Shown: positions 7,568-61,139 of the stretch, one piece after another
Position numbering within the stretch: the stretch's first letter is position 1
Layout: each line of letters begins with the position of its first letter
Assembly (NCBI GenBank): GCA_030054175.1
Contig: JASGCM010000004.1
Location: 1 to 64,000, forward strand
DNA length: 64,000 bases
From: Alphaproteobacteria bacterium
GTDB lineage: Bacteria; Pseudomonadota; Gammaproteobacteria; Burkholderiales; Burkholderiaceae_C
Reading direction: 5' to 3'
The notes under the pieces: generated by a model
What the model was told of the DNA's origin: nothing
The model's input: only the letters and a program-made list of their open reading frames with translations
Database searches by the model: none
Made by a program: the position numbers and the translations under genes

Positions 7568-7570
7568 CCT

Positions 7571-22085: not shown

Positions 22086-22086
22086 A

Positions 22087-24238: not shown

Positions 24239-24240
24239 GC

Positions 24241-25431: not shown

Positions 25432-25464
25432 AAGCCAAGCCCCTCGATAGGGACAGGAGGAGAC

Positions 25465-30438: not shown

Positions 30439-30507
30439 GTCTTCAAGGAATGTATTGGCGTCATGGCGCTGGCCTTCATATCATCAGGCGGTTACAAGGA
30501 GTATGCC

Positions 30508-31551: not shown

Positions 31552-31571
31552 ATTTCCTTAGGACACATCCC

Positions 31572-32678: not shown

Positions 32679-32697
32679 AGATAGGGGTTTTAATGTC

Positions 32698-32726
32698 TTG
32701 ACAATTACGGGAATTTTCCCATAATT
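32698..32726 (+). promoter_or_regulatory. Sigma-70 promoter of the flavin monooxygenase gene
   Basis: A consensus -35 TTGACA (32698-32703) and a -10 CATAAT (32720-32725) are spaced 16 bases apart. A start site near 32732 would leave a leader of about 20 bases with TTGGAG before the ATG at 32753. The promoter overlaps a palindromic operator. Confidence 0.75.
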
Positions 32727-32727
32727 G
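32702..32727. promoter_or_regulatory. Palindromic operator overlapping the promoter
   Basis: Arms CAATTACGGGAA (32702-32713) and TTCCCATAATTG (32716-32727) are inverted repeats matching at 11 of 12 positions around a TT spacer. They cover the space between -35 and -10 and the -10 itself, the classic place for repressor binding. The MarR gene at 33951, last in this unit, is the obvious candidate repressor. Confidence 0.65.
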
Positions 32728-32752
32728 AGTCAAACCATCTTGGAGACCCCCT

Positions 32753-33949
32753 ATGAACACCGCCGTTGATGCCTTTCTAAGCACCGAGCAAGACGCTGTG
32801 CTGACCCGCACAGCCGATTTATGCACCCGTTTGGGCGAGCGGGGTTTTGAGAACGAAAAACAAGGGCAGATCGATGCTGATACCGTGACCCAGGTACTGG
32901 ATGCTGGCATCATGAAGATGGGTGTGCCGCGCCGATACGGCGGCCTGGAGGTGAACTACGAGATGTTCCCCGAGGTGTCCTTGATGCTGGGCCGCGCCTG
33001 TTTGGCCACATCATGGACCATCGGGATCTTGCTGCAACACAATATGCAAATGGGTCTGTTTCCGGAAGAGGCCCAAGACGAGTTTTGGGCCCATGGCCCC
33101 AATACCTTTGCCCCCGGCTTCATCATCCCCGGCGGGACAGCCCGCGCCGTGAGTGGTGGCTATTGGCTCAGTGGGCACTGGCGTTTTGGCAGCGGCTACC
33201 CCTTGGGGGACTGGATTTTACTCAGCGCCCATGAAGTGGTCGATGGCGAAAAGAAGCAGGTGCGCCGCTTCGCCCTGCCGCGTGCCGACACTTCTCCGCA
33301 GAACAATTGGCAAGTCAGCGGACTGTCGGCCAGCAGCACCTGGGATTGTCTGCTCGATGACGTGTTCGTGCCGCAGCACCGCAGCATGCCCGCATCGTCC
33401 ATGCTCGACGGCAGCGCTCCGGGACTGGGGGTGAATGTGGGTCCCACCTGGCGCATCCCAATGTTGTCGTTTTATTACCCGAACATGACGGCCATGGTCT
33501 TGGGCGCCGGTCAAGGCGTCGCGCGGCAGGTGTTGCAGCGAATGAAGGGGCGCACACTGGCTTATGGCGGGGCGCAAGCGGCGGACTTGGGCTATATGCG
33601 CGCCAACACGGCGCGTGGATTCACCGAACTCAACGCCGCCGAGGCCCTCTTGAAATCGCACACGAGCCGCATTGGCCAGACCGCGCGTCAGGGCGGCACG
33701 TTCGAAATGATCGATCGCGCAGCGGTGCGCGCCGATTGCACCTGGGTTGTGAAAACCGCTCGACGAACGGCCCAGGAGCTGTGCGATCAGGCCGGCACCA
33801 GTGCGTTTTTCCTCAGCTCAGAACTGCAGCGCTTTCACCGAGAAATCAGCGTCATGTCCAGCCACTCGTTCTATGATGCCGATCGCATGTACGATGTGTA
33901 CGGCAAAGCCCTTTTTGGGCAGGATATCCCCGCTGGGGAATTGATTTGA
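32753..33949 (+). CDS. Group D flavin-dependent monooxygenase, acyl-CoA-dehydrogenase fold
   Basis: A 398-residue protein with the acyl-CoA dehydrogenase fold, of the branch that includes the oxygenase components of two-component monooxygenases (HpaH/HsaA type). It shows GVPRRYGGLEV, SGHWRFGSGYPLGDW (flavin pocket) and no acyl-CoA dehydrogenase catalytic base signature. Such enzymes take reduced flavin from a separate reductase, and none is obvious nearby. It has its own promoter and operator and is followed by a MarR gene. Confidence 0.8.
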   Translation: MNTAVDAFLSTEQDAVLTRTADLCTRLGERGFENEKQGQIDADTVTQVLDAGIMKMGVPRRYGGLEVNYEMFPEVSLMLGRACLATSWTIGILLQHNMQMGLFPEEAQDEFWAHGPNTFAPGFIIPGGTARAVSGGYWLSGHWRFGSGYPLGDWILLSAHEVVDGEKKQVRRFALPRADTSPQNNWQVSGLSASSTWDCLLDDVFVPQHRSMPASSMLDGSAPGLGVNVGPTWRIPMLSFYYPNMTAMVLGAGQGVARQVLQRMKGRTLAYGGAQAADLGYMRANTARGFTELNAAEALLKSHTSRIGQTARQGGTFEMIDRAAVRADCTWVVKTARRTAQELCDQAGTSAFFLSSELQRFHREISVMSSHSFYDADRMYDVYGKALFGQDIPAGELI

Positions 33950-33950
33950 T

Positions 33951-34421
33951 TTGAACGCACCACTGTTCAAGGTATCCCACTGGCCGATGGCGCATTTCGC
34001 GCGCATCGAGCGTCAGCATCAGGCCAACGCCAATGCCCTGCTCAAAACACACGGTCTGAAACATGCCGAATGGCGGATTTTGGCGCTGACCGATGAATTG
34101 CAATCGGTCAGCCTGACACAGATCGTCGACTTGGTCGTGATTGAACGCACCACCATCGGCAAGCTGATTGATCGCATGGTCGAGCGCGGCTGGCTGGACA
34201 AGGCCAAATCCAGCACCGATGCCCGCGCCATGCAAGTGAGATTGACGAACCAGGGTCGGCGCTTGCTGCGCGCCACCGTCCCGGCCATGCTTGAATTGAT
34301 GCAAGGGTATTCACAGGGCCTCAGCGCCCCTGAGTTCGAGCGCCTGATGGCGACGTTGCACCGCTATGGCCAGCAGGTCAAATGTTGCGACCCCCATCGA
34401 CGTCCAGACACACCCCGGTGA
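33951..34421 (+). CDS. MarR-family transcriptional regulator
   Basis: A 156-residue MarR protein with core HAEWRILALTDE, recognition region VVIERTTIGKLIDRMVERGW and wing SSTDARAMQVRLT. A TTG at 33951 directly after the previous stop fits the spacing to GGGGA in the monooxygenase end; an ATG at 33987 is the alternative. The last 44 bases overlap the convergent SDR gene, and the C-terminal tail beyond about residue 142 is not family-like. It probably controls the operator at 32702-32727. Confidence 0.87.
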   Translation: MNAPLFKVSHWPMAHFARIERQHQANANALLKTHGLKHAEWRILALTDELQSVSLTQIVDLVVIERTTIGKLIDRMVERGWLDKAKSSTDARAMQVRLTNQGRRLLRATVPAMLELMQGYSQGLSAPEFERLMATLHRYGQQVKCCDPHRRPDTPR

Positions 34422-35136
34422 GGTAAGACGAATCGTCGCTGGCCAGAAAGGCCACCGCCTGTGCGACATCATTGGGTCGAGTAAAACGGCGCAACGGAAT
34501 GCGTTGCAAAAACCGCTCGCGGTTGACGGGCGTATCTTCCATGCCCATGAAATCGGTCATCATGGGCGTCTCCCCAATCATGGGGTTGACTGCATTGACC
34601 CGCACACCATGCGCAGCCATCTCAAGGGCCAAGCCTTTGGTGGCGTTGAGCATGGCGGCTTTGGTGGCGCTGTACCAGGTCAGGCCGGGACCAGGACGCA
34701 CCCCGGTGGTCGAGGCCACGTTGACCACGCAACCCGAACGCTGCCGCACCATGACCGGCAAGACCGCTTGCGCAGCCCAAAACAAGCCTTTGACGTTGAC
34801 TCGAAAAATCCGGTCGAATTCGTCCTCGGTGACTTCCAGTGCAGGTTTGTTTTTGTGCGTGGTGCCGGCGTTATTCACCAACACATCGATGCCACCCCAG
34901 GCGTCCACCGCGGTCTGGGCCATGCGCCAGACTTCGTCTTGTTGCGACACGTCAACGGCGCAGGCCAAGGCCTGACCGCCCTGTTGGGCCAATTGCAGGA
35001 CCATGGCATCGGCACCATCGGCATTGAGATCGGCCACCAGCACTCGGGCCCCGGCGCTGGAGAAGTGTTGTGCGATGGCGGCACCAAAGCCGGAAGCCGC
35101 GCCGGTCACGATGACGCGTTTGTCTTGAAAGTTCAT
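34378..35136 (-). CDS. Short-chain dehydrogenase, TsaC-like
   Basis: A 252-residue SDR with GAASGFGAAIA and catalytic YSATK. Segments NAGTTHKNKPAL and NPMIGETPMMTDFMGMEDTP closely resemble, from memory, TsaC, the 4-(hydroxymethyl)benzenesulfonate dehydrogenase of toluenesulfonate degradation. The ATG at 35136 overlaps the Rieske stop by 4 bases, which sets the start; a longer frame to 35193 is less likely. Last gene of the 13-gene operon; expected to oxidise an aryl alcohol made by a Rieske enzyme. Confidence 0.85.
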   Translation of the reverse strand: MNFQDKRVIVTGAASGFGAAIAQHFSSAGARVLVADLNADGADAMVLQLAQQGGQALACAVDVSQQDEVWRMAQTAVDAWGGIDVLVNNAGTTHKNKPALEVTEDEFDRIFRVNVKGLFWAAQAVLPVMVRQRSGCVVNVASTTGVRPGPGLTWYSATKAAMLNATKGLALEMAAHGVRVNAVNPMIGETPMMTDFMGMEDTPVNRERFLQRIPLRRFTRPNDVAQAVAFLASDDSSYLTGVCLDVDGGRNI

Positions 35137-36185
35137 GGTGTTGGCGCTTGGTTGGTGGTTTGCTCGTCTTGCAAGGCGCGGTCGATCAACCAACGCGCCT
35201 GGCTCAGACCGCTGTCGGCCCAGATCGGAATCATGGGACGGCCAGGGGTGAGGCTGACAATTTTTTGCTGCGCTTCGATCATGGTTCGGTCTTCTTCAAA
35301 AGCCACCACCACGCTGTCGTAAATCGATTCTGTCAATGCCTCATTGTCCAAGTCAAAATTGCGCGCCTGGCAAAACCAATAGTGGCAAGTGGTTTCGGTC
35401 TCGGGTGTTTGGATCGAGGTGTGACGAAACTGAACTGAATTGGGCGCTCGATGACCTTCGGGCGCACCAGTTCCGGTGGGCGCAGAACCCGCGTCCATGC
35501 GCAAGAGTGCAGGCGGTGACCATTGGTAGATTTGCCACCGATCCACCTTGCCCTCGAAACTGGCCACCTTTTTGTGCAAGGCCGGCATGTCGTCGTTGAC
35601 ATACCAGCGGCTGATGGTCAGCGTGCCCAAGCCCTGTGTGTCGCGCTCGATGGTCGGCTTCAACCCCGAGGCGCTGTCGGTGCCCAGGGTATTGGGGTGG
35701 ACCCATGCCAGGTGGGTGAAGTCAAGCAAGTTGTCAACGACCCACTCGTAGCCAGCCTGGTAATGGATGTAGCCGGGCTTCATGCGCCAGTCGGGGTGGT
35801 CGTGCCAGTGGTAATCGACGATCTGCGCAGGATCGGCCAGCAAGGGGTCGCCCATCCAGACCCAGACCAAACGATCACGTTCGACCACCGGATAGTTGCG
35901 CACCCGCACTTTGTCGGGGATGCGTTCTTGACCTGGAATTTCAACGCAAACGCCACTGGGGTCGAATTTGAGACCATGGTACATGCAACGAACGCAGTCG
36001 CCTTCTTTGCGTCCCAGGTGCAAGGGTGCCGCCCGGTGACAGCAACGGTTTTCCAGCGCCACGGCGCGGCCTTGGGTGTCGCGATACAGCAGCACCGGCT
36101 CGTTGAGCAGGATGCGGTTCAAAAAAACATCTGGAGGGACTTCGATGTCCCAAGCCGCCACATACCAGCAATTGCGGATGAACAT
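35133..36185 (-). CDS. Rieske [2Fe-2S] oxygenase, VanA/TsaM type
   Basis: A 350-residue VanA-type oxygenase with Rieske residues CCH and CMYH and the iron-site helix DNLLDFTHLAWVHPNT. It would O-demethylate an aryl ether or hydroxylate an aryl methyl group, with electrons from the VanB-type reductase encoded first in the operon. It is translationally coupled to the TsaC-like SDR, an oxygenase-dehydrogenase pairing like tsaM/tsaC. The gap to DctM is 14 bases. Confidence 0.9.
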   Translation of the reverse strand: MFIRNCWYVAAWDIEVPPDVFLNRILLNEPVLLYRDTQGRAVALENRCCHRAAPLHLGRKEGDCVRCMYHGLKFDPSGVCVEIPGQERIPDKVRVRNYPVVERDRLVWVWMGDPLLADPAQIVDYHWHDHPDWRMKPGYIHYQAGYEWVVDNLLDFTHLAWVHPNTLGTDSASGLKPTIERDTQGLGTLTISRWYVNDDMPALHKKVASFEGKVDRWQIYQWSPPALLRMDAGSAPTGTGAPEGHRAPNSVQFRHTSIQTPETETTCHYWFCQARNFDLDNEALTESIYDSVVVAFEEDRTMIEAQQKIVSLTPGRPMIPIWADSGLSQARWLIDRALQDEQTTNQAPTP

Positions 36186-36199
36186 GGGTCAGGTCTCCT

Positions 36200-37492
36200 T
36201 CAGGCAAACCACTTCAGTGCCACCAGGGCGATGTCGGGCCAAATGATCAAACAAGCCACCATGGCCATATTGGCCACCAGGAAGGGCATGACACCACGGA
36301 AAATGGTAGTCAATGACACATCGGGGGTCAGCGTTTTGACCGTGAATACGTTCATGCCCACGGGCGGGGTCAACATACCGACTTCGATCATGACAGTGAC
36401 GAAGATGCCAAACCAAATCGGGTTGACCCCCATGCCGACCGCCACAGCAGTGAACATGGGCACGGTCAACAACATCAGCCCCATGGCTTCCATCAGGCAA
36501 CCCAACACCAGATAAATGAGGACCATGCAGATCAATACCCCGTAGACGGTGAAGCCCTGTTGTTGGATCCATTCGACCAACTGTACGGTCATACCGGTCA
36601 GGGTGATGAAGTTAGCGAAAGCCAGCGCACCAAAAATGATGGTGAAAATCATCGCCGTGGTCTTGCCGGTCTCAATCAAGCAGCTCAATAACACGCTCGG
36701 TGACAGCTTGCGGCGAGCGACGGCAAATGCGAATGCGCCCATGACCCCAATCCCCGCCGATTCGGTGGCCGTGAATACGCCGCTGTACAAGCCGCCCATG
36801 ACGAAAACAAACAAGGCGATGACCGACCAAACTCCTTTAAGGGCCAGAAATTTTTCCTTCAGGGTGTATTTGGGACCTCTGGGGCCCAAAGACGGATTCA
36901 GAGTGACGGTGACCCACACCGCGCTGATGAAAAACAGCGTCAGCATCAAACCGGGGATGATGGTGGCGATAAAGAGTTTACGGATGTCGGTTTCGGTCAA
37001 CAAACCGAAAATCACCAATGGCACCGAGGGCGGAATCAGCACCCCCAGAACCCCAGCCGAAGCGACAGAACCAGTGGACAAGCGGTCGTGATACCCCAAA
37101 CGGCGCATGGGCGGAATCGCCACCCGGCTCATGGTGGCGGCAGTGGCAATGGAACTGCCCGAGATCGCTGCGAACAGCGCACAAGAAGCCACCGTGGCGT
37201 GCGCGAGTCCACCTTTGAAGTGCCCCAGCCAGGCATTGGCGGCGTCGTACAAGTCTTCGCTGATTTCGGCTTTGTGGACGAAGATGCCCATCAGCACGAA
37301 CATGGGCAGGACCGACATGCCGTAATTGGCCGACGAGTCGAACAAAATCTGACCCAGCATGGCCAGCGAGCCGTCGATGCCACGAATATAGGCAAAACCA
37401 CCCACGCCGGCCAACAACATGGCAAAGCCCAAAGGCACGCCGGCAAAGGCGAGCAAAAAGAGAATCAGGAATCCAATCAGGGCCAGGGTCAT
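36200..37492 (-). CDS. dctM: TRAP transporter large permease (DctM family)
   Basis: A 430-residue, highly hydrophobic protein with many membrane segments, of the TRAP large-subunit family, with the conserved PPSVPLVIFG motif. It drives sodium- or proton-coupled uptake of organic acids. The ATG at 37492 overlaps the DctQ stop by 4 bases. Together with DctQ and DctP it makes a complete transporter placed inside an aromatic catabolic operon, suggesting an aromatic acid ligand rather than a C4-dicarboxylate. Confidence 0.92.
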   Translation of the reverse strand: MTLALIGFLILFLLAFAGVPLGFAMLLAGVGGFAYIRGIDGSLAMLGQILFDSSANYGMSVLPMFVLMGIFVHKAEISEDLYDAANAWLGHFKGGLAHATVASCALFAAISGSSIATAATMSRVAIPPMRRLGYHDRLSTGSVASAGVLGVLIPPSVPLVIFGLLTETDIRKLFIATIIPGLMLTLFFISAVWVTVTLNPSLGPRGPKYTLKEKFLALKGVWSVIALFVFVMGGLYSGVFTATESAGIGVMGAFAFAVARRKLSPSVLLSCLIETGKTTAMIFTIIFGALAFANFITLTGMTVQLVEWIQQQGFTVYGVLICMVLIYLVLGCLMEAMGLMLLTVPMFTAVAVGMGVNPIWFGIFVTVMIEVGMLTPPVGMNVFTVKTLTPDVSLTTIFRGVMPFLVANMAMVACLIIWPDIALVALKWFA

Positions 37493-37989
37493 GATGCGTC
37501 TCCACTGCGGCCGAATTGGCGCCACAGGTCGATGAGTACCAACACGCTGGTCAGTGCGGCGAACACCGACAGTGCATACACCAAGGGCCCTTGTGGCAAG
37601 GCCAGTACGATGGTTTGCTGCTTTTGCTCAGTGGACTCGGAAGCGTAGACCCACAGCCGCCAGCTCATGAGCCCCAAGGCCAGCAGGCTGATCAGGTCGC
37701 AAACGATGGTTTTGAAACGCAGGGCGCCCACACCCAGCATGCCGTCAATCAGGGACACCGTGACATGGCCGCGATGCCGGGTGACCAGGGGCAAAGCGGC
37801 GAAAATGCTCAGGGCCATGGCGTATTGAATGATTTCCAGGCTGCCTTTGATGGGCGCTGAAATGAGGTAACGGGCAAAGACGTCAATGAACGTCAGCACC
37901 ACGATCAAACCCAGCGGGATGGACGACAAAATGCCCAGAGCACGGTCGAGGCTGTCGTCGGACGGGCTCAAGCCCTGCATCTCACTCAT
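37489..37989 (-). CDS. dctQ: TRAP transporter small permease (DctQ family)
   Basis: A 166-residue membrane protein with four predicted helices and the DctQ-family segment VFARYLISAPIKGSLEIIQY. It forms the small membrane subunit with DctM. The preceding DctP gene ends 73 bases upstream. Confidence 0.9.
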   Translation of the reverse strand: MSEMQGLSPSDDSLDRALGILSSIPLGLIVVLTFIDVFARYLISAPIKGSLEIIQYAMALSIFAALPLVTRHRGHVTVSLIDGMLGVGALRFKTIVCDLISLLALGLMSWRLWVYASESTEQKQQTIVLALPQGPLVYALSVFAALTSVLVLIDLWRQFGRSGDAS

Positions 37990-38062
37990 GAATCTGTCTC
38001 CTGGTTATGGTGATGTTCATGCCCCTGCAAACCACTGGCTGCGAGGGGCAGAGTGCTCAGAT

Positions 38063-39085
38063 TCACTTGTTCTTGACGGCTTCTTCTTTGAAGAAGGCAA
38101 GTGCGGCCTTGCCGTCCACGCCCAAGCTGGCTGCATCGGCCAACCAAGCCGCTTCGATCGGCTCCGCCAGTTTCTTCAACTCCGCCACAAATGCCGGGCT
38201 GGCTTCTTTGTAGACCAGGCCTTTGGCCTTCGATTCAGCCCGCAGGCGGTTGTCGACGTTGTCATAGTCGACAAAACGACGGGCAAACGATTCGCCTGAG
38301 AGCTTCATGATCGCCTCTTGGTCCTTGGGCGAAATGGCGCTCCACTTTTTCTTGTTCATGAAAAAAGCAAAAGCGGGCACAGTCAAATGGCCAGGCACAT
38401 CGATCACTTCCTTGGCGTACTGCAAGGTTTTGAAGGCATCGGCGTCCATGACCGAATAACCGGCGAAAGAATCGACGGTGCCGCCCGAAATGATTTCATG
38501 GCTGCGTACGGCCGGGGCTGCGACCACGCCAGCACCACCGGCCTCAAACATGCGTGCCGGCACGCCGGGCAAAGCGTACATCTTGGTGCCCTTGAGGTCG
38601 GCCATCGAGTTGATGGTGTTTTTCATGGGAAAGATCGGGCCGGGAGCACCGACAAAGAAGCCGAGAACCTGAACGTCGGGCAGTTCATTGGCCTTGGCGA
38701 AAAATTTCTCATAAGTGCGCCACAAGGCAACCGAGCTGCCTTTGGCCGAGGTATTCACAAAAGGAAGATGCGCGACATTGGTCAGCTTGACCTTCGGAGC
38801 CAAAAAGCCGTGAAATTGGTAGGCGATGTCAAACACACCCTTGGTCACGCCATCGAGTTGCTGAGGCGGAGCCGAGAGGCTGGTGGGTGCGATGTCGATC
38901 ACCACGCGTCCTTCGGTGGCCTTGGCGATGTCATCGGCCCAGGGTTTGATGATTTGGGTGGTGATCGGGTGGTTGATCCCAATGAAAGTGTTGAGCAACA
39001 ACTTCTGTTGCTGGGCCTGGGCGACGCCCACCCCCAAGCCCAGGCATACGGCCACCAGGGCCAGGGTTCTGCGGTGCAATCTCAT
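38063..39085 (-). CDS. dctP: TRAP transporter periplasmic substrate-binding protein (DctP family)
   Basis: A 340-residue binding protein with a signal peptide ending near GVGVAQA, then a DctP-type fold. The segment NTINSMADLKGTKMYALPG includes the usual arginine position, here occupied by Lys/Met (TKMY), so the carboxylate-anchoring arginine is not obvious. It delivers the ligand to DctQM. The ligand is unknown; the surrounding genes point to an aromatic acid. Confidence 0.88.
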   Translation of the reverse strand: MRLHRRTLALVAVCLGLGVGVAQAQQQKLLLNTFIGINHPITTQIIKPWADDIAKATEGRVVIDIAPTSLSAPPQQLDGVTKGVFDIAYQFHGFLAPKVKLTNVAHLPFVNTSAKGSSVALWRTYEKFFAKANELPDVQVLGFFVGAPGPIFPMKNTINSMADLKGTKMYALPGVPARMFEAGGAGVVAAPAVRSHEIISGGTVDSFAGYSVMDADAFKTLQYAKEVIDVPGHLTVPAFAFFMNKKKWSAISPKDQEAIMKLSGESFARRFVDYDNVDNRLRAESKAKGLVYKEASPAFVAELKKLAEPIEAAWLADAASLGVDGKAALAFFKEEAVKNK

Positions 39086-39124
39086 CTCAGTCTCCTCTTG
39101 GGTTCAGTCAAAAAAATGGCCCTC

Positions 39125-39580
39125 TCAGGCGGCCGATGAAACGGGTGGCTCAAAAAACACGCCATATTCGCGTGCCACTTGCACCACCTGAGCGGGGCTC
39201 GACATGTTGTGGATGCGGCGATACAGGTCCACCAGCCTGCCTGCGGGTGCGGCCCAAAACAGGGCTTTTGCAGGCTTGCCGGAATTGTTGAAAAAAGCGT
39301 GCGGTATGCCCCTTGGCATGCGCACCAGGTCGCCGGCGTGGGCCGACTGCGCTTGTCCGTCCAAAATCAGGTCGATGCGGCCTTCCAGCACATAGATGTA
39401 CTCGTCCTGATCGACATGAGTGTGCGGCGGCACAAACGTTTCTTCTGGGAACAGTGCATGCCAGGAAAAGCTGTCCTCGGTCATTTGCTTGGGGGTATAG
39501 ACTTGTCCCAAGATGTTCCAGCTGACGCCATCCAGACTTTGGTTGTTGCGGGTGATTTCGGGGGTTTCGCGCAGCGTCAT
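39125..39580 (-). CDS. Cupin-domain protein
   Basis: A 151-residue single-cupin protein with metal-site motif PPHTHVDQDEYIYVLEG and the second motif region GDLVRMPRGIPHAFFN. Small cupins of this kind act as ring-cleavage dioxygenases, isomerases or sensors. It overlaps the sulfatase stop by 4 bases. No specific reaction can be assigned; the metal-binding histidines are present. Confidence 0.85.
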   Translation of the reverse strand: MTLRETPEITRNNQSLDGVSWNILGQVYTPKQMTEDSFSWHALFPEETFVPPHTHVDQDEYIYVLEGRIDLILDGQAQSAHAGDLVRMPRGIPHAFFNNSGKPAKALFWAAPAGRLVDLYRRIHNMSSPAQVVQVAREYGVFFEPPVSSAA

Positions 39581-41292
39581 GCCAGATCCTCGTGCCGGTG
39601 GGGGGCGATGGGTTGGGTGAGTCGGTCGAGCGTGCGTTTGACCAGCGGGTTGCTGGAAGCGAAACGCGGCTTGAAGGTCTTGCGCTGCTCGATCAGGTCT
39701 TGCTCATCGACATAGCCAATCAGCACGCCAGACTCGGTGATGCGGGCCTGTACCTCGGTGGTGGCGATCAGGCCATCGGGCACGGTCACCCGCTGGCGCG
39801 GCTGTCGGGCCCATTCGAACAGCTTTTCGTGCATGCGCTGACGCGCTGCGACATGCTCGGCATCAGCGCTGCCCCCCAAGTCACGCAGTTCTTGGGGATC
39901 TTGCTGCAAGTCGAACAGCATGGGGCGGTAGCCCTCGGCCCAAATGTATTTCCAGTGACCGTCAAAGATCATGCGCAGCCAACACTCGCGCGGCGGCGTT
40001 TGCAGCTCGATGCGAGCGTCTTGGAATGAATAGTCGTATTCGCTGACCACGGCTTGCCGCCAGTCGGGAGGTGTATGACCGAATAAAAACGAACGCAGCG
40101 AGCGACCATCGAGCACATGCGGCACAGCAGGCCCACCGTAGACATCAATGAAAGTGGGCAACAGATCCACCGACTCGACCAGGGCGCTGCAGCGGGTGCC
40201 CCGGGTGGTGTCGGCACGCGAGTCGGGGTCGACAATGATGAGAGGGGTCCGGATGGAGGGTTCGTGAAAGAATTCTTTCTCACCCAGCCAATGATCACCC
40301 AGGTAGTCGCCGTGGTCGGAACAAAACACGATCAGGGTCTGCTCCATTTGACCCGACTCGCGCAAATACGCCATCAGATCTCCGATGCTGTCGTCGATTT
40401 GTTTGACCAATCCCATATAGCCTGAAATCACTGCGTTGCGCACTTCGGGCTGGCTGAAGCTGCGCGACACCCGATGGTGGGTGAAGGCCGCGTACACGGG
40501 ATGCGGATCGTTCAGTTCTTGCTCATCGCGCACCAGGGATAGCGCGTGTTCGGGGCCATACATGCCGGCGTAAGGAGCCGACACCACATAAGGCCAGTGC
40601 GGCTTGATGTACGACAGATGCATCAGCCAAGGCTGATTGCCGGCCTGACGCAGAAAATCGATGGCGCGACGCGTGGTGTACGGGGTTTCGGCGTGCTCGT
40701 TGGGGATGCGAGCCGGCAAGCGGCTGTACTTGAGGTACCAACCTGAATGCAATGTACCGTCGTGGTCAACCACCGTATTGGCCCATGATTCCCATGGGTT
40801 GTCACCGCCAAAGCCCTGCGCGCGCAAGTAGTCGGAATAGTTGGGATCGGGGTCATGTCCCGAATAGGGGTGGATGCCGTCATCGCGCTCAAAAGGCTCA
40901 AAGCCGCACTCGGCGATGCGCACGCCTATGGCCGATTCGGGGTCGATGCCCATGCGCGACATGCCGGCATAATCGGCGCGCATATGGGTTTTGCCCACCA
41001 AAACGCTGCGCACACCCAAAGGACGCAAATGGTCGCCGATGGTCATCTCACCGGCTTTGAGCGGCACAAAATTCCAGCTCACCCCGTGCGAGTGCATGTA
41101 GCGACCGGTGTAGTAGCTCATGCGTGAGGGGCCACACACCGGGGACTGCACATAGGCGCGGTCAAATACGACCCCACGCGCTGCCAGGGCGTCGATGTGG
41201 GGGGTGTGCAAATGGGGGTGTCCATAGCAGGACAAATGATCGGCGCGCAGCTGATCGCACATGATGAAGAGAACGTTGCGCGGCTGGGTCAT
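39577..41292 (-). CDS. Sulfatase-family hydrolase (FGly type)
   Basis: A 571-residue alkaline-phosphatase-superfamily enzyme. The motif CGPSR fits the CxPSR consensus where cysteine is oxidised to formylglycine, and MCDQLRADH and CSDHGDYLGDHWLGEKE supply metal residues. No signal peptide is visible, so it is probably cytoplasmic. It may hydrolyse aryl sulfates; phosphonate monoesters or phosphodiesters are also possible in this branch. It is clearly paralogous to the sulfatase at 42350. Confidence 0.87.
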   Translation of the reverse strand: MTQPRNVLFIMCDQLRADHLSCYGHPHLHTPHIDALAARGVVFDRAYVQSPVCGPSRMSYYTGRYMHSHGVSWNFVPLKAGEMTIGDHLRPLGVRSVLVGKTHMRADYAGMSRMGIDPESAIGVRIAECGFEPFERDDGIHPYSGHDPDPNYSDYLRAQGFGGDNPWESWANTVVDHDGTLHSGWYLKYSRLPARIPNEHAETPYTTRRAIDFLRQAGNQPWLMHLSYIKPHWPYVVSAPYAGMYGPEHALSLVRDEQELNDPHPVYAAFTHHRVSRSFSQPEVRNAVISGYMGLVKQIDDSIGDLMAYLRESGQMEQTLIVFCSDHGDYLGDHWLGEKEFFHEPSIRTPLIIVDPDSRADTTRGTRCSALVESVDLLPTFIDVYGGPAVPHVLDGRSLRSFLFGHTPPDWRQAVVSEYDYSFQDARIELQTPPRECWLRMIFDGHWKYIWAEGYRPMLFDLQQDPQELRDLGGSADAEHVAARQRMHEKLFEWARQPRQRVTVPDGLIATTEVQARITESGVLIGYVDEQDLIEQRKTFKPRFASSNPLVKRTLDRLTQPIAPHRHEDLA

Positions 41293-41298
41293 CTCGTT

Positions 41299-42339
41299 TC
41301 AAACCCGCTTGGCCACTTGTTGACGGATGATGGTCAAAGCCTTGTCGGCCATGATGGCTTTGGGCACCGTCTGAGCACCGCGGCGCACCGCCCGATGTTG
41401 CGCCTCGACCATGGCCTGGTCTTCGGCAAAAGCGGCCATGATGTTTCGATGCACGATGTCGGTCATCTCGGGGTTGTCAACCTCGAAATTGCGCCAATGG
41501 ATCCAGAAGTAATGCGTGTGATCCTCATCTTGAGGGGTCAGCGCGGCAATGTGATGGAACTCGATCGCACCTTCGCGCGAGCCATGGGGTTTGTCGCGTG
41601 CGCCTGTGCCGGTGGGCGCAGAGCCTGAATCGAGCGACATGACCGCCGGTAAATGCCAACGGAAACAGTGCCAGGCGTCGACGTTGCCCGGGAAGCGCCC
41701 TACCGATTGGTGAAAGCGGGATGCCGGCACGTCGATGTACCAACGGTCGGTCTGTACGCCCTCGGTCAACGGAGTGACCTGGGTCGAGAAATCGGCCTGT
41801 TGCACCGAGCCCACGGTGTTGGGGTGCACAAAGGGCAAATGACCAAAGTCGAGCAGATTGTCGGCCACCAGGCTCATGTGCGCGTGGACGTGCAGATAAC
41901 CTTGCGAGGGCGCCCAACGAGGGTCGTGCGCCCAAGGCGCGTCGATGATCTTGGTGGTGTCGGCCTGCTCGGGTATGCCCATCCACACCCACAGGAATCC
42001 GTCTTTTTCGACCAGCGGATAGCGTCGCACGCACATATTGGGGTGGCCTTGTGGCTGCGCCGGAATCTCTAGGCACTGCCCCACGGCGCCAAACTTCACC
42101 CCGTGGTACATGCAGCGGATGCCGTCGGACTCGATCCGCCCTTTCGAGAGCGGTGCCAGGCGGTGCGCGCAGCGATCTTCCAGTGCCACCGCCTCGCCAG
42201 CAGCGGTGCGAAAGAGCACCAGATCGTCGCCCAGCACGGTTCGCGCCAATGGTTCTTGAGCCGTGACTTCGCTGGGCCAGGCCACCATGTACCAAGCGTC
42301 GCGCAGAAAAAATTTGTCGGGCAATATGGCTAGACTCAT
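41299..42339 (-). CDS. Rieske [2Fe-2S] oxygenase, VanA type
   Basis: A 346-residue VanA-type oxygenase with Rieske residues CAH and CMYH and iron-site helix DNLLDFGHLPFVHPNT. ATG at 42339 chosen, with AAGGA 6 bases upstream, giving a 10-base gap after the preceding sulfatase. It lies between two sulfatase genes and would demethylate or hydroxylate an aromatic acid, sharing the VanB-type reductase of the operon. Confidence 0.9.
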   Translation of the reverse strand: MSLAILPDKFFLRDAWYMVAWPSEVTAQEPLARTVLGDDLVLFRTAAGEAVALEDRCAHRLAPLSKGRIESDGIRCMYHGVKFGAVGQCLEIPAQPQGHPNMCVRRYPLVEKDGFLWVWMGIPEQADTTKIIDAPWAHDPRWAPSQGYLHVHAHMSLVADNLLDFGHLPFVHPNTVGSVQQADFSTQVTPLTEGVQTDRWYIDVPASRFHQSVGRFPGNVDAWHCFRWHLPAVMSLDSGSAPTGTGARDKPHGSREGAIEFHHIAALTPQDEDHTHYFWIHWRNFEVDNPEMTDIVHRNIMAAFAEDQAMVEAQHRAVRRGAQTVPKAIMADKALTIIRQQVAKRV

Positions 42340-42349
42340 GATATTTCCT

Positions 42350-43924
42350 TCACCACTCTCCAATGATCACGCCCCCGGCTGCTGCCGGGTTCGCTCGTTT
42401 CATGATGTCGGCGTCCGATATGGTGACACGATTGCGCCGCAACCGCATCCAGTCAAACACCAAGCCCAAGTGCTCGTCGCGAACTTGGGCATACCCTGGG
42501 TCGCGCCCCAAATCGCGCAGCTCTTGCGGGTCTTCCAGAAGGTCAAAGAGTTGCGGCGGCAGGCCGTCGTAATGGATGTATTTGTAGCGATCGCTGCGGG
42601 CCATGACCATGCGCGCCTGATGCGGCTTCAAGCCCAACTCGCGCGCAGCGCCGTATATGGCGTAATCGAGTTCCGAGAATGCGGCTTCACGGATCGAGTT
42701 GGTGCGCCCTTCCAGCAAGGGGCGCAGTGAGCGACCCTCCAGCCAATGTCGAGGCAACTCCTGCCCCACAGTTTCCAAAAAAGTCGGCACCAGGTCGATG
42801 GCCTCGACCAACGCCTGGCTGGTGGTGCCATGGGTTTGGGGGGAGGACGGATCGGCCACGATCATGGGGATGCGCACCCCTTGTTCATACATGAACTCTT
42901 TCTCGCCCAACCAGTGGTCACCCAAATAGTCGCTGTGGTCGGCGGTGAACACGATCATGGTGTTGTCCCACAGGCCTCGCTCTTTCATGAATGCAAACAG
43001 GCGCCCCAGGTAATCGTCGACTTGCTTGACCAGCCCCATGTAGGCCGGAATCACGTTATCGCGGTCGACATCGCGTGAGAACGCAACGCCCTCCGGGTGT
43101 CGGCGGAAACCGGCGTACACCGGATGGTCGTCCTGGCGCTCATGTTCGGCCCGGATCGGGGCTTGAATGTCCTCGCGGCCGTACATCTTGTGGTAAGGGG
43201 CTTGGACAATGTAAGGCCAGTGAGGCTTGATGTACGACAAATGCAGCAACCAGGGGCGATCGCCATGCTCGGTCATGAAGTCCATGGCGCGCTTGGTCAT
43301 GTACGCAGTCTCTGAATGCTCGTCAGGGGCGCGCGTAGGCAGATGGGCATTTCGGTAGTACCAGCCACTGGCGATCTGACCGTTCTCGTCTTCGCCGGCG
43401 TTGGCCCAGGTGTGCCAGGGGTTGTCGCCAGTCATGCCATGGCCGCGCAGGTATTCGTTGTAGGCCAGTTTGGGGTCGACTTTGCTGTCGGGGTGGACGC
43501 CGTCATCGCGCTCGTACGGCTCAAATCCGGCTTCGGCGGCGTAACGGGCTTCGGGGCCCTCGGGCGCCAGAGCATAACGGGATAGCCCATCGCGGTCGGC
43601 GTACATGTGGGTCTTGCCGACCACCGCCACGCGCATGCCACTGTGGCGCAGGTGGTCACACAGGGTCTGCTCGCCCAGGGGCAAGGGGATGAAATTCCAG
43701 GTCGCACCGTGCGAGAACACGTAGCGTCCCGAATAGAACGAGGCCCTGGATGGGCCGCAATTGGGCGACTGGCAGTAAGCCCGGTCAAAGCGCACACCGC
43801 GTCGAGCGATTTCGTCGATATGGGGGGTGTGCAACGTGCGATGACCGTAGCACGACAAGTAATCGGCGCGCAGCTGATCACACATGATGAAGAGGATATT
43901 CTTGACTTTGCTCATGGTTGTCAT
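42350..43924 (-). CDS. Sulfatase-family hydrolase (FGly type), second paralogue
   Basis: A 524-residue paralogue of the sulfatase at 39577, sharing FIMCDQLRADYLSCYGH, the CGPSR formylglycine motif, GYVGKTHM-like region and DHSDYLGDHWLGEKEF. The two are roughly half identical by eye. No signal peptide. An internal ATG (MSKVKNIL) three codons on is an equally good start. Substrate unknown; probably a sulfate or phosphate/phosphonate ester of an aromatic compound. Confidence 0.87.
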   Translation of the reverse strand: MTTMSKVKNILFIMCDQLRADYLSCYGHRTLHTPHIDEIARRGVRFDRAYCQSPNCGPSRASFYSGRYVFSHGATWNFIPLPLGEQTLCDHLRHSGMRVAVVGKTHMYADRDGLSRYALAPEGPEARYAAEAGFEPYERDDGVHPDSKVDPKLAYNEYLRGHGMTGDNPWHTWANAGEDENGQIASGWYYRNAHLPTRAPDEHSETAYMTKRAMDFMTEHGDRPWLLHLSYIKPHWPYIVQAPYHKMYGREDIQAPIRAEHERQDDHPVYAGFRRHPEGVAFSRDVDRDNVIPAYMGLVKQVDDYLGRLFAFMKERGLWDNTMIVFTADHSDYLGDHWLGEKEFMYEQGVRIPMIVADPSSPQTHGTTSQALVEAIDLVPTFLETVGQELPRHWLEGRSLRPLLEGRTNSIREAAFSELDYAIYGAARELGLKPHQARMVMARSDRYKYIHYDGLPPQLFDLLEDPQELRDLGRDPGYAQVRDEHLGLVFDWMRLRRNRVTISDADIMKRANPAAAGGVIIGEW

Positions 43925-43928
43925 GGTT

Positions 43929-44738
43929 TCAAATCGTCACCCCGCCATCGACACCGATGACTTGTCCGGTGATGTGGCATGCCAGGTCGGTCGCCAAAAA
44001 GCCCACGCAGGCGGCGACATCTTCGACGCTCTGGGGTCGTTGCATGGGCACGTGCAAACGCACCCGTTGATCGAATTTGTCGCCTTCCGATTCAGGCAAC
44101 GTGCCGCGTTGAACCAACTCGCCCCACATCGGGGTGCGGATATAGCCGGGGCACACGGCATTGACGGTGACCAGCGCCATGGCGAGGTCACGGGCCAAGA
44201 CCTTGCTCAAGGATATCAGGGCCGCTTTTGAGACACTGTAGGCGGGCATGTAAGGTGTCGAGATCACCCCAGTGATGGAAGAGATGTTGATGATGCGGCC
44301 GGCCTTGGATGCCAGCAAGGGTTCACGGGCAGCAGCGCACCAATGCACGGCACCCATCAAATTGATGTCGAGCGTGCGGCGCCATTCCTCAGGTGTACAT
44401 CGGGTGTAGGGCTGACCCGGGGCCGATGCGACACCGGCGCAATTGACCAACACGTCGATGCCACCCCAAGACTGGCACACCGCTTGGGCCGCCTGCTCGA
44501 CCTGCGCGACGTCGCTGACATCACAGGCGATGCCCTGAGCTTGTGCGCCGGCCTGGTGCAGCGTTTGGGCCATCTGCTCGGCACCGCCAGCGCTGCGATC
44601 GGCGATAAGCACTTTGGCGCCCAGCCCGGCCAGTTCGCGCGCAATGGCGCTGCCGATCCCCATGGCTCCACCAGTCACCACAGCCACCCGCCCTTGCAGG
44701 CTGACTTGGTTCAATCGAGACAGTGCACCGGTGTCCAT
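43929..44738 (-). CDS. Short-chain dehydrogenase next to ring-hydroxylating dioxygenase
   Basis: A 269-residue SDR with GGAMGIGSAIA and catalytic YSVSK. Its start is one base after the dioxygenase beta-subunit stop, so it probably oxidises the cis-dihydrodiol made by the alpha/beta dioxygenase to a catechol. This role is inferred from position. Confidence 0.85.
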   Translation of the reverse strand: MDTGALSRLNQVSLQGRVAVVTGGAMGIGSAIARELAGLGAKVLIADRSAGGAEQMAQTLHQAGAQAQGIACDVSDVAQVEQAAQAVCQSWGGIDVLVNCAGVASAPGQPYTRCTPEEWRRTLDINLMGAVHWCAAAREPLLASKAGRIINISSITGVISTPYMPAYSVSKAALISLSKVLARDLAMALVTVNAVCPGYIRTPMWGELVQRGTLPESEGDKFDQRVRLHVPMQRPQSVEDVAACVGFLATDLACHITGQVIGVDGGVTI

Positions 44739-44739
44739 A

Positions 44740-45264
44740 TCAGAAGAAGATACTCAGGTTTTTTTGGGTCACGACCGACTGGTCGAGAATGATGTCGCGC
44801 CGATAAATTTGCCACTCGTCCTGGTGCGGGCGCAGGTAATCGTGCCGAAAACCGCTGAAAAATTCGAAGTCGTACTCCAGGTGCGAACGGTACAGCAAAA
44901 AGGTGCTGCGAACTTCCAGCCGACCATCGTCTTCGACCTTCAAGACTTCGACATTGCCCAGCAGGTGACGGGTGCGTGAAGGGGGCGTCTCGGCCCAGGC
45001 CATGCCGGTCTGCAGACGTTTGACACGGTTGGTCAGGCTGGTCTTGTCATCGTCAAAGTGGGCGACTTCGCCAAAGTTGCTGATTTCTTTGCCCAGGTCA
45101 CGGCCGATGCGGTTGGTGATGACTGGCATCCAGTAACGCAAATCGTCGCTGAACAGACTCAGCCAATCGGTCAGTTGGTGGTCGTCTTGCAAGCGAGCCT
45201 CACGCGTGAGAAAGGCTTGGACCCGAAACCACAAGGCCATGTCGGCCACGGCGTGCTCACTCAT
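44740..45264 (-). CDS. Aromatic ring-hydroxylating dioxygenase, beta subunit
   Basis: A 174-residue small subunit with the family segment DHQLTDWLSLFSDDLRYWMPV and a SnoaL-like cone fold. It has a structural role in the alpha3-beta3 oxygenase. Overlaps the alpha-subunit gene by 4 bases. Confidence 0.93.
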   Translation of the reverse strand: MSEHAVADMALWFRVQAFLTREARLQDDHQLTDWLSLFSDDLRYWMPVITNRIGRDLGKEISNFGEVAHFDDDKTSLTNRVKRLQTGMAWAETPPSRTRHLLGNVEVLKVEDDGRLEVRSTFLLYRSHLEYDFEFFSGFRHDYLRPHQDEWQIYRRDIILDQSVVTQKNLSIFF

Positions 45265-46595
45265 GATTGCACCTGCTGGCAGGCGCGACGCGTCATATCG
45301 GGCACGGCAGGCTCGCGGGTGTCGTCCATCAATGCGGCCCAGTGCTGGTAGAAGGCGCGCTGATTGATTTCGGACTGGAACTTGCCCAAACGGCCCCTGA
45401 TGTCCGGGTGGATGGCGCTCGGGTCTTTGATCTCGTCACCCAAACCCATCTCCAGATTTTGCGGATAACGGCGAGCCACATAGCCCTCGCTGGATGAATG
45501 GCACTGCACCCAGTTATCGACGTCATCGGCCTCCCAGGTGCCGCTGGTACCGTGGCGTTGCAACATGTGCAGCGCTTTCTCACGCTTGTAAGCCTCGGGG
45601 GCGGCTTTGTCGACGAAACACCAGCCCCAGGCCTCAGTCAATTTCGGCCCCTTGGGGTGCCAGACCCGGATTGCACCGCCCTGCCACAAGAGAGACACAT
45701 TGGGAAAGATAGAGGCGTGCATGGGCGAGAAATGCAGGCCACGCAAATCGCCCAAGCGCTGAATCGACTCTTCCAAGCGGCTTTTTTCGTAGTCGAGGAA
45801 CTCGGGCAACGACATCTCGTAGACCTGCTCCCGGTTTTCCGCCCAACGAACGCCAAAGCCATGGCCTCCGCCTGGGTTGACCTGAAAACCCTCGTAGCCA
45901 TATCCGCTTTTGCGCCGCGGCATGCCTTCAAAACCCGAGACCCAAGCCGATTTGTGACTGACCGGACCGTGGTAGCTGTCGCCAATGAAATTGTCGACCG
46001 GAAATTTCCAGTTGGTGTGAACCAGCCACTTGTGGGTACCAGGCAGGAACTCTACGCCACCATCGCGGCGATCGAGCATCATGTCCAGGTACCAGGCCAT
46101 ATCGCCCAAAAACTCAAGCAAAGGGGGCGCATGCTGATCGAAGGTGGCGAACAACAGACCCTTGTAGCTGTCGATCTTGGCCACCGGCACTAAACCGTGG
46201 GCGTCCAAATCGAGCTTTTCCAAGTAGATTTCCTTGTAGCCTGGCACATTGGTCAGGCGACCGTCGTTGCCAAAGGTCCAGCCGTGGAAGGGGCAACTGA
46301 ACGCGCGGACATTGCCAGCATCGGCGCGGCAGACCCGGTTGCCACGGTGGCGACACATGTTCAGATAGCAACCAATGGAGCCATCTGATTTGCGGGTCAC
46401 AATGACCGGGTCACGACCCATGTAGGTGGTGAAGAAATCATTCGGCTTGGGCAACATCGATTCATGCCCCAGCAACAACCAACAGCGGGCGAAAATGCGC
46501 TCGAGTTCCAGTTCAAAAATTTGCGGGTCAGAGAAGATTCGGCGATCCAGATCACCCCACCTCAGGTCCATCATGTGTTCGAAATGTGACTTCAT
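45261..46595 (-). CDS. Aromatic ring-hydroxylating dioxygenase, Rieske alpha subunit
   Basis: A 444-residue catalytic subunit of an alpha/beta dioxygenase. The Rieske motif is CRHRGNRVC...CPFHGW and the mononuclear iron site begins DNFIGDSYHG. The ATG at 46595 is preferred, with AAGGAG 8 bases upstream; a long N-terminal extension to 46784 is antisense to the reductase and not credible. It would cis-dihydroxylate an aromatic substrate with electrons from the adjacent reductase. Confidence 0.93.
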   Translation of the reverse strand: MKSHFEHMMDLRWGDLDRRIFSDPQIFELELERIFARCWLLLGHESMLPKPNDFFTTYMGRDPVIVTRKSDGSIGCYLNMCRHRGNRVCRADAGNVRAFSCPFHGWTFGNDGRLTNVPGYKEIYLEKLDLDAHGLVPVAKIDSYKGLLFATFDQHAPPLLEFLGDMAWYLDMMLDRRDGGVEFLPGTHKWLVHTNWKFPVDNFIGDSYHGPVSHKSAWVSGFEGMPRRKSGYGYEGFQVNPGGGHGFGVRWAENREQVYEMSLPEFLDYEKSRLEESIQRLGDLRGLHFSPMHASIFPNVSLLWQGGAIRVWHPKGPKLTEAWGWCFVDKAAPEAYKREKALHMLQRHGTSGTWEADDVDNWVQCHSSSEGYVARRYPQNLEMGLGDEIKDPSAIHPDIRGRLGKFQSEINQRAFYQHWAALMDDTREPAVPDMTRRACQQVQS

Positions 46596-46624
46596 CGCTT
46601 TGCTCCTTTGAACCCCATCTGGTC

Positions 46625-47587
46625 CTATAGATCGATCACCAGACGTTCGCTTTTGGCCCGCGAGACGCAAATCATCAGGCTCTTGTTGGCCTGTCTCTCC
46701 TGCTCGCTCAGTATTTGGTCGCGGTGATCGAGTTCGCCCTCGATCACCATGCATTCGCAAGACCCACAGTTGCCCTCGCGGCACACCGATGGCACGATGA
46801 CGCCAGCCAATTCCAGCGCATCCAATATGCTCACGCCCACGGGCACTTCCACGACTTGACCCGAGCGCTTCAAGTGCACGTTGAAAGTGCGATCACCAGC
46901 GGCTGGGGCCGCTGGTGCACCGCCAAACGATTCAAAGTGCAGGCGATCGACCGGGTGGCCAAGCGCCACGCCGACTTCTCGAACCTTGTCCATCAGTGGC
47001 TGCGGACCACAGCAATAGACCTGGGTCGCAGGATTGAGGCCATGAAACAGCGCACTGACGTCCAATGGCCGGCCGCCGTGCTCGTCGTCAAAATGCGTCT
47101 GCAAAACACCGGGCATGGACTGCAATTCATTGACATAGGCGGCATGGGCGCGCGATCGGGCTGCCAACACCAGATGCCAACCCCGGCCCTGAGCTTCGCG
47201 CTCGCGCGCCATGGCCAGCAAGGGGGTGATGCCGATGCCACCGGCAACCAGCAAGACAGGATCGTCGCTGTCGGCCATGGCAAAGAGATTGCGCGGCAGG
47301 CCCACCTCAACGCAACCGCCCGGGCTCCAATGCTGGTGCATGTGTGCCGATCCGCCACGGCTTTGCGCCGCCAGGGAGACCGCCATCACGTAGTGCTGCG
47401 TCGGTTGTCCCTCGCTGGGCTGGGTCAGGGAATAGGCCCGCGCCAATTGGGGGGTGATGAAGACGTCGATGTGCGCCCCAGCGTGATACCCAGGCAATAA
47501 CTTCCCGTCAGGGTCGGTCAACGTCCATTCGACGATGCCTAGGGCCACATCTTTGCGACCTTTGATTATGAGTTTTTGCGTCTCCAT
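46625..47587 (-). CDS. VanB-type oxygenase reductase (FMN, NAD, [2Fe-2S])
   Basis: A 320-residue reductase of the phthalate-dioxygenase-reductase/VanB family with flavin domain, NAD domain (GGIGITPLL) and C-terminal plant-type ferredoxin with CREGNCGSCE and a final cysteine in MICVSR. It passes electrons from NAD(P)H to Rieske oxygenases. It is the first gene of the 13-gene operon, and the only such reductase visible, so it may serve all oxygenases there. ATG at 47587 chosen; a frame reaching 47623 lacks family similarity. Confidence 0.9.
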   Translation of the reverse strand: METQKLIIKGRKDVALGIVEWTLTDPDGKLLPGYHAGAHIDVFITPQLARAYSLTQPSEGQPTQHYVMAVSLAAQSRGGSAHMHQHWSPGGCVEVGLPRNLFAMADSDDPVLLVAGGIGITPLLAMAREREAQGRGWHLVLAARSRAHAAYVNELQSMPGVLQTHFDDEHGGRPLDVSALFHGLNPATQVYCCGPQPLMDKVREVGVALGHPVDRLHFESFGGAPAAPAAGDRTFNVHLKRSGQVVEVPVGVSILDALELAGVIVPSVCREGNCGSCECMVIEGELDHRDQILSEQERQANKSLMICVSRAKSERLVIDL

Positions 47588-47609
47588 GTCTCGAAGCGTA
47601 AAATTCGCT

Positions 47610-47623
47610 TTGACCACGGTCAA
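47610..47623. promoter_or_regulatory. Candidate LysR operator, first dyad
   Basis: TTGACCACGGTCAA: perfect 6-base arms around AC, in the 86-base divergent region between the VanB-type reductase operon and the LysR gene at 47674. Confidence 0.5.
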
Positions 47624-47634
47624 GAAAATTCTTG
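47621..47634. promoter_or_regulatory. Candidate LysR operator, second dyad
   Basis: CAAGAAAATTCTTG: perfect 6-base arms around AA. It overlaps the previous dyad by three bases. Two dyads close together fit the recognition and activation sites used by LysR activators, though the exact T-N11-A pattern is not clean. Confidence 0.45.
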
Positions 47635-47673
47635 TTTTCAGCGATAACCAAAATTCATACCCAAGGCGCCCAT

Positions 47674-59973: not shown

Positions 59974-60090
59974 CAAAGATCTCCTAAATACAGAATTTCA
60001 AAAAATAATTTTTAAATTTGAAATTACACAAAGCAGCAAGCGTCGGGATTCGGATTGTCCTTTTGTAAGAGCATAAACGAAATTGGTGAC

Positions 60091-60584: not shown

Positions 60585-60608
60585 GATTGGAACTCCTTGG
60601 CTGAGAAT

Positions 60609-61094: not shown

Positions 61095-61139
61095 CTGGGG
61101 GGCGGTATAGCAATTTCTCCTGGTTTCGAATGAAATGGG

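Follow-up and report, generated by a model that had tools for sequence, protein, structure and literature searches.

The 64,000-nucleotide stretch analyzed here (the window; G000:C12:1-64000) carries on its minus strand, at 34378-47587, a thirteen-gene operon that combines Rieske oxygenases, two arylsulfatases, a cupin, and a TRAP importer, which on balance we read as a unit for uptake and upper-pathway catabolism of aryl sulfate esters with an oxidizable methyl or similar side group. In transcription order, the genes encode a reductase, the alpha and beta subunits of a ring-hydroxylating dioxygenase (RHO), a short-chain dehydrogenase/reductase (SDR1), sulfatase 1, Rieske oxygenase A, sulfatase 2, the cupin, the transporter proteins DctP, DctQ, and DctM, Rieske oxygenase B, and a second dehydrogenase (SDR2). 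The gene set was defined by open reading frame (ORF) calling and Pfam, with NCBIfam run on ten of the thirteen proteins. It bears out the layout and contents given in a first-pass annotation of this DNA, with gaps of at most 73 bases (the widest, between dctP and dctQ) and four 4-base overlaps (alpha/beta, sulfatase 2/cupin, dctQ/dctM, and Rieske B/SDR2). No gene looks decayed, and all ten terminator-like matches on the minus strand are intragenic; the whole scan returned 20 matches against a shuffle mean of 14.0 (standard deviation 3.4), an excess of less than two standard deviations. We infer that the thirteen genes are co-transcribed as one unit, and the earlier proposal of a single unit for aromatic catabolism acting on a sulfated substrate is supported.

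The case for side-chain oxidation starts from SDR2 (34378-35136), which scores 376.7 bits against TsaC (PDB 8SY8), 171 bits above the next solved chain (205.8), with 173 of 252 residues identical (69%). By sequence, TsaC is clearly its nearest solved SDR, and it is a real TsaC homologue, presumptively an arylmethanol dehydrogenase, confirming the TsaC-like label it had received. TsaC oxidizes the benzylic alcohol that TsaM forms from a methyl group, according to an excerpt of PMC10579966. Matches to SDR2 at E 1e-75 occur in 15 of 399 family genomes, its own included, with a break in identity between 62% (G308) and 51% (G129), so that a TsaC homologue at least 62% identical to SDR2 is present in 4 of the 398 other family genomes, from three genera. 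An order-level search (389 genomes, E 1e-90) returned only its own genome, and the plasmid collection gave no match at E 1e-75. In all four genomes with a TsaC homologue (L152 to L155), an oxygenase, a reductase, the TsaC homologue, and a long ORF follow in this order and in one direction; Pfam identifies the fourth ORF of L152, L153, and L154 as an aldehyde dehydrogenase, and that of L155 is 86% identical to that of L154.

Rieske B (35133-36185) is 61-77% identical to the oxygenases beside these TsaC homologues. It shares with all four the H160, H165, and D294 columns and a Met at the column of DdmC residue 230, the residue reported for TsaM at this position in an excerpt of PMC10511449. The same Met is present in L156 and L157, neither seen beside a TsaC homologue, and the column of TsaM Thr232 is Ala in Rieske B. 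Rieske B thus carries the Rieske ligands, the 2-His-1-Asp triad, and the Met that characterize TsaM, in a comparison made with TsaC-linked oxygenases in place of the TsaM sequence; we call it TsaM-like from its gene neighborhood, its identity to those oxygenases, and one residue. Given this resemblance of Rieske B to the oxygenases that neighbor TsaC homologues in four other family genomes, methyl-group oxidation is favored over demethylation for the Rieske B/SDR2 pair. Compared with TsaMBCD of Comamonas testosteroni, which acts on p-toluenesulfonate and 4-methylbenzoate, the operon has the TsaC homologue, an oxygenase like the neighbors of TsaC, and a reductase of the same general type, but it lacks TsaD, its reductase sits with the dioxygenase, and it adds two sulfatases, a cupin, a TRAP transporter, a second VanA-type oxygenase, and the alpha/beta dioxygenase. 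Since it contains no aldehyde dehydrogenase, we do not class it as tsaMBCD, only as using M-like and C-like steps.

The association of TsaC homologues with sulfatases appears outside the window as well. In two of the four genomes, the tsaMBCD-like operon runs on into a sulfatase gene, after gaps of 34 (L152) and 24 (L153) bases. The L152 locus reads LysR, then dctPQM-oxygenase-reductase-TsaC-aldehyde dehydrogenase-sulfatase, with 167 bases between dctM and the oxygenase gene, and the L153 locus reads LysR, then oxygenase-reductase-TsaC-aldehyde dehydrogenase-TctC-sulfatase. The L152 sulfatase is 49% identical to sulfatase 1 and falls in the same clade (7 members, support 0.966); the L153 sulfatase belongs to a different subfamily (24%). 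Given the number of sulfatase genes per genome (4 in G308, with two pieces of one frame joined, 3 in G393, 5 in G320, and 8 in G177), we estimate the chance of at least two of four genomes having a sulfatase within 5 kb at about 6e-4, with the 5-kb distance picked post hoc and two of the genomes coming from one genus.

Both sulfatases of the operon are SpAS-type members of the arylsulfatase/phosphonate monoester hydrolase group. Sulfatase 1 (42350-43924; PF00884, PF16347) scores 584 bits against 4upi and 555 against 4upl, and sulfatase 2 (39577-41292; PF00884) scores 628 against 4upl and 625 against 4upi. The best phosphonate monoester hydrolases reach at most 242 and 216 bits, respectively, and an identity as such hydrolases was rejected on these scores (at most 242 bits against 555-628 for SpAS1/SpAS2). 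Both proteins align nearly full length with the SpAS enzymes and have the Cys-x-[PSA]-x-Arg site, as CGPSR at the formylglycine position; sulfatase 1 has no signal peptide by eye. SpAS1 and SpAS2, dimeric arylsulfatases of Ruegeria (Silicibacter) pomeroyi, differ from the window sulfatases in setting, as the latter sit in a Rieske operon and a cupin constantly accompanies sulfatase 2. An excerpt of PMC5870055 describes SpAS1 as an arylsulfatase without choline sulfatase activity. Its gene encodes WP_011241904.1 on the R. pomeroyi megaplasmid (103 of 104 compared residues equal 4upi, the sole difference being the active-site Cys). There it lies beside an importer and aromatic-type genes, 3' of three tripartite tricarboxylate transporter genes (TctB/permease/TctC-type), an Asp/Glu-racemase-family gene, a gene for an FAH-family hydrolase, and one for a cupin protein whose top match is gentisate 1,2-dioxygenase, at 290 bits and below the cutoff of 442. 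In L128, the neighbors of a sulfatase 1 relative are dctP, an aldehyde dehydrogenase, and a protein with the large-subunit domain of hydroquinone dioxygenase. A Variovorax plasmid encodes a sulfatase 54% identical to sulfatase 1 within a few kilobases of Rieske, reductase, and SDR genes of another type, a divergent regulator lying between. These three contexts, which were selected by inspection and not counted blind, suggest that the substrates are aryl sulfates. The neighbors of the SpAS1 gene (L175/L178; NC_006569.1 119912-127668) are also a lead to the natural substrate of that enzyme.

The sulfatase 2 gene is constantly accompanied by that of the single-domain cupin (39125-39580; PF07883). 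Among the best 80 of 391 loci encoding a sulfatase 2 relative, the cupin gene lies directly behind the sulfatase gene in 21, which are all the loci of at least 60% identity except L062 (61%), whose contig stops 424 bases on, so that a cupin would show only partly, and L119 (68%), whose contig stops at once. In the sulfatase tree, a 25-member clade with support of 1.0 unites the window protein with 24 others, all 24 with a cupin within 700 bases, making 25 of 25; L062 branches outside this clade, and L119 was left out as too short. Counting the window cupin, 24 distinct sequences retain the complete HxH...E...H metal site, as does a 14-row alignment. Record titles place the sulfatase 2-cupin pair in Burkholderiales, Sulfitobacter, Granulosicoccus, and other proteobacterial bins. 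The nearest solved relatives of the cupin are quercetinases and RemF, with weak scores, and an alignment-free structure model of it was set aside (mean pLDDT 39.4). Importer genes are enriched beside the sulfatase in the same 80 loci, in 59 of 148 flank bins at 0-2.5 kb versus 37 of 383 at 2.5-10 kb (59/148, 14/135, 11/126, and 12/122 by increasing distance). On a plasmid of Sulfitobacter sp. W074 (L149 15109-22951), sulfatase 2, the cupin, dctPQM, and LysR stand between two IS6 transposase genes that are 97.5% identical to each other, a cassette that is possibly a composite transposon for sulfate-ester use.

The remaining oxygenases add steps beyond the Tsa-like pair. Rieske A (41299-42339, from an ATG start, with an alternative TTG start possible at 42363; PF19112, PF00355) and Rieske B both combine a Rieske domain with VanA_C, placing them in the VanA/DdmC family, and DdmC is the best solved relative of each (32% and 36% identity, respectively). 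The mononuclear iron site of 2 His and 1 Asp is kept in both, the CxH...CxxH Rieske ligands are readable in the same alignment, and Rieske A, with all three iron ligands conserved, is 79% identical to its copy in the related locus L040. An excerpt of PMC10511449 names Asn230 and Trp285 as residues of the DdmC substrate pocket. These are replaced in B/A by Met/Leu and Ser/Asn. The column of His251, which we take to be a third pocket residue, is ambiguous, with Ser/Ala (B/A) in one alignment and His for A in the HMMER alignment. Rieske A and B thus share the family of the vanillate (VanAB) and dicamba (DdmABC) O-demethylases, and the operon has a reductase of the VanB general type, but they differ in their low identity to DdmC, in columns 230 and 285, and in the linkage of Rieske B to a TsaC homologue. 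A fourth Rieske oxygenase, with VanA_C and about 44% identity to Rieske A and B, is encoded within 30487-33949 on the plus strand, adjoining a zinc alcohol dehydrogenase, an acyl-CoA-dehydrogenase-like protein, and MarR.

The two-subunit dioxygenase has an HcaE/biphenyl-dioxygenase-like alpha subunit (45261-46595; PF00848, PF00355; best PDB match 8k0a, 349 bits) and a beta subunit (44740-45264; PF00866, 149 bits). The alpha subunit scores 392 bits against the NCBIfam HcaE model, whose curated cutoff is 830, and is related to HcaE but not the same enzyme; at E 1e-120 in the 399 family genomes it matches only its own genome. SDR1 (43929-44738; PF13561; 39% identity to TsaC) adjoins the alpha and beta genes both here and in a related locus (L041), and it is probably the cis-dihydrodiol dehydrogenase for this dioxygenase. 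Like the HcaEF/biphenyl-type systems, the operon keeps alpha, beta, and a candidate diol dehydrogenase together, with Rieske and catalytic domains in the alpha subunit, but unlike them it has no separate ferredoxin gene and a single PDR/VanB-type reductase (46625-47587, ATG at 47587; PF00175 for NAD binding and PF00111 for the C-terminal Fer2 domain), the only reductase in the operon. The genome that carries the operon has three PF02900 (LigB) matches and one PF00775 match, neither tied to the operon.

A plausible order of reactions can be drawn from homology and gene order. The TRAP transporter, complete with DctP (38063-39085; PF03480; best PDB match 4p56, 158 bits), DctQ (37489-37989; PF04290), and DctM (36200-37492; PF06808, 291 bits), would import a sulfated aromatic anion. 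Supplied by the single reductase, the TsaM-like Rieske B would then hydroxylate a ring methyl group, SDR2 may turn the resulting alcohol into the aldehyde, and an aldehyde dehydrogenase encoded outside the operon would complete the carboxylate. The two SpAS-type sulfatases, presumably cytoplasmic, would cut the S-O bond to release sulfate and a phenol, and the HcaEF-like dioxygenase with SDR1 could form a catechol, with ring cleavage encoded elsewhere in the genome. Rieske A may carry out either another hydroxylation or a demethylation, and the cupin may have as its substrate an intermediate linked to sulfatase 2. Of the substrate classes that fit the steps from import to desulfation, cresyl-sulfate-like compounds are the simplest.

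Related loci preserve parts of this arrangement. The search for the same gene order elsewhere, which the first-pass annotation had suggested, found nine genes in window order at 64-84% identity in L040, with a GMC oxidoreductase gene after dctM; the match is imperfect in that Rieske B is a fragment there. Other loci join sulfatases to oxygenases of another kind: L056 has an SDR, a P450/reductase fusion, a sulfatase, TRAP dctPQM, sulfatase 2, and the cupin in one string; L057 is similar from the reductase on, with a PobA above its curated cutoff nearby, behind a divergent LysR-like gene; and L125 has the string sulfatase-aldehyde dehydrogenase-SDR-P450/reductase fusion. The recurrence of unrelated oxygenases in the same arrangement with alcohol dehydrogenase, aldehyde dehydrogenase, and sulfatase favors side-chain oxidation on a sulfated ring. 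The whole combination occurs in no other genome examined (the 80 sulfatase 2 loci and the 399 family genomes), L040 being the nearest. Judged by titles and the starts of abstracts, none of the papers listed for sulfatase together with Rieske, TsaM, VanA, or oxygenase in the open-licence PMC literature describes such an operon, in keeping with the earlier remark that no described pathway is known to have this combination; the source that brings together Rieske, sulfatase, TRAP transporter, and gene cluster, PMC5770400, has passages on the presence or absence of traits in Thalassobius genomes. The component families are all known, and the novelty is their combination.

The evidence has to be weighed against three other explanations. 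The operon could serve a sulfated methoxylated aromatic acid, in which case both VanA/DdmC-type enzymes would be O-demethylases and the phenol would be released by the sulfatases. Both oxygenases match VanA_C and have DdmC as best solved relative, TsaM itself demethylates p-methoxybenzoate according to an excerpt of PMC10511449, and Rieske A could be a demethylase. However, the products of O-demethylation are formaldehyde and a phenol, so that the TsaC homologue would have nothing to do, and Rieske B is nearest to the TsaC-linked oxygenases; neither A nor B retains DdmC residues 230 and 285, though a demethylase of another substrate would not need them. We regard this explanation as unlikely, and the word "methoxylated" in the first-pass annotation is poorly supported. 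A different possibility is an arylsulfonate pathway of the p-toluenesulfonate type, the substrate for which TsaMBCD is known (excerpt of PMC10579966), with the sulfatase-like enzymes in a side function. It draws support from L041, whose RHO alpha is 76% identical to that of the window and where LysR, PcaH-like, PcaB-like, and 4-sulfomuconolactone-hydrolase-like genes (4850-8821) stand beside the HcaE-like dioxygenase, perhaps as a branch for a 4-substituted catechol. This gene set resembles the 4-sulfocatechol branch, but its hydrolase-like protein scores 292 bits against a curated cutoff of 500, and a search at E 1e-15 of the window and the further 100 kb of its contig compared gave no relatives of the L041 genes. 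Two arylsulfatases with intact active-site motifs in mid-operon are also hard to reconcile with a sulfonate, as are the SpAS1 and L128 contexts. Because the sulfatases are nearest the SpAS arylsulfatases and a sulfatase 1 relative adjoins a hydroquinone-dioxygenase gene, a sulfonate is less likely than a sulfate ester; of the earlier wording "sulfated or sulfonated", the first part stands, and we judge the arylsulfonate pathway distinctly improbable. Finally, a generic sulfatase-cupin-TRAP cassette could have recombined into an aromatic operon, leaving a mixed unit whose parts have no common substrate. Such a cassette, together with LysR, stands by itself between the IS6 genes of the Sulfitobacter plasmid, and many of the Burkholderiales loci have LysR, sulfatase 2, and cupin without the oxygenases of the operon. 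The interleaved order of sulfatase 1, Rieske A, sulfatase 2, cupin, and TRAP genes up to the Rieske B fragment and SDR2 is nevertheless kept in L040 at 64-84% identity, and sulfatases recur within tsaMBCD-like operons elsewhere, leaving a mixed operon improbable.

Several observations weigh against the aryl sulfate ester reading itself. In L040, the closest relative of the operon, only about the first 53 codons of Rieske B remain, joined to SDR2 at about its residue 10 (9720-10596), through either a genomic deletion or an error of assembly. The pairing of the same dioxygenase with a 4-sulfomuconolactone-hydrolase-like gene in L041 would fit a sulfonate or a sulfonated catechol as well. The TsaC-sulfatase link comes from four genomes only, two of one genus; the nearest sulfatase in G320 is about 9 kb off, and G177 has none on that contig. 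Beside sulfatase 2 relatives, neither the tested oxygenase types (4/148, 2/135, 4/126, and 0/122 bins) nor aldehyde dehydrogenases (0/148, 0/135, 1/126, and 5/122) are enriched. The operon itself lacks an aldehyde dehydrogenase, leaving the Tsa-type chain incomplete there, and at E 1e-15 the window and nine further stretches of the same genome hold no relative of the L152/L154 aldehyde dehydrogenases and none of the TsaD-, PcaH-, PcaB-, or 4-sulfomuconolactone-hydrolase-like proteins. Nor was a clear sulfatase-maturing enzyme, either formylglycine-generating or anaerobic, found in its own genome: the PF03781 matches on C19 and C13 (L167, L168) look SUMF1-like with a leader and EgtB-like, by eye, and all TIGR03942 matches are under the cutoff. 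Two sulfatases, two VanA-type oxygenases, a dioxygenase, and a cupin also exceed the needs of a simple cresyl sulfate.

More tentatively, and with considerable doubt, we propose that TsaMBCD is one member of a wider natural system for alkyl-aryl sulfate esters, in which the side chain would be oxidized before cytoplasmic desulfation by SpAS-type enzymes, Rieske and P450/reductase-fusion oxygenases would be interchangeable, and sulfatase 2 and cupin would be a two-gene enzyme unit of new function. If true, the operon would provide a genetic model for alkyl-aryl sulfate catabolism, of which we found none in the open-licence literature, and a native setting for the SpAS arylsulfatases. It would also open the origin of TsaMBCD to direct tests; this pathway, known for the industrial chemical p-toluenesulfonate, may have arisen from natural sulfated aromatics. 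Because aryl sulfates, cresyl sulfates among them, are commonly excreted, the pathway could be relevant to the cycling of carbon and sulfur in wastewater and the waters that receive it.

A divergent LysR gene (47674-48594, plus strand; PF00126, PF03466) precedes the operon and likely encodes its activator. The gap between them (47588-47673) contains a short palindrome, TTGACCACGGTCAA, at 47610-47623, and the protein is 47% identical to the LysR at the equivalent divergent position in L041. None of the five other genomes of the same genus matches sulfatase 2 at E 1e-80 or SDR2 at E 1e-75, so the operon looks accessory. No transposase was found among the 40 window ORFs run through Pfam. The assembly consists of 3.1 Mb in 39 contigs (99.59% complete), and because its contamination is estimated at 4.91%, misbinning of the operon contig may apply.

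Elsewhere in the window, the plus-strand genes at 19752-27141 encode a 777-residue FAD_binding_3/OYE fusion together with an SDR, MarR, an enoyl-CoA hydratase, an acyl-CoA dehydrogenase, and an AMP-ligase, a set that presumably resembles a 2-aminobenzoyl-CoA (or salicylyl-CoA) pathway. The G+C content falls to 0.45-0.50 at 58000-62000, and an ORF of 879 residues at 57337-59976, with a weak ankyrin match, has multicopper oxidase and outer-membrane efflux genes nearby.

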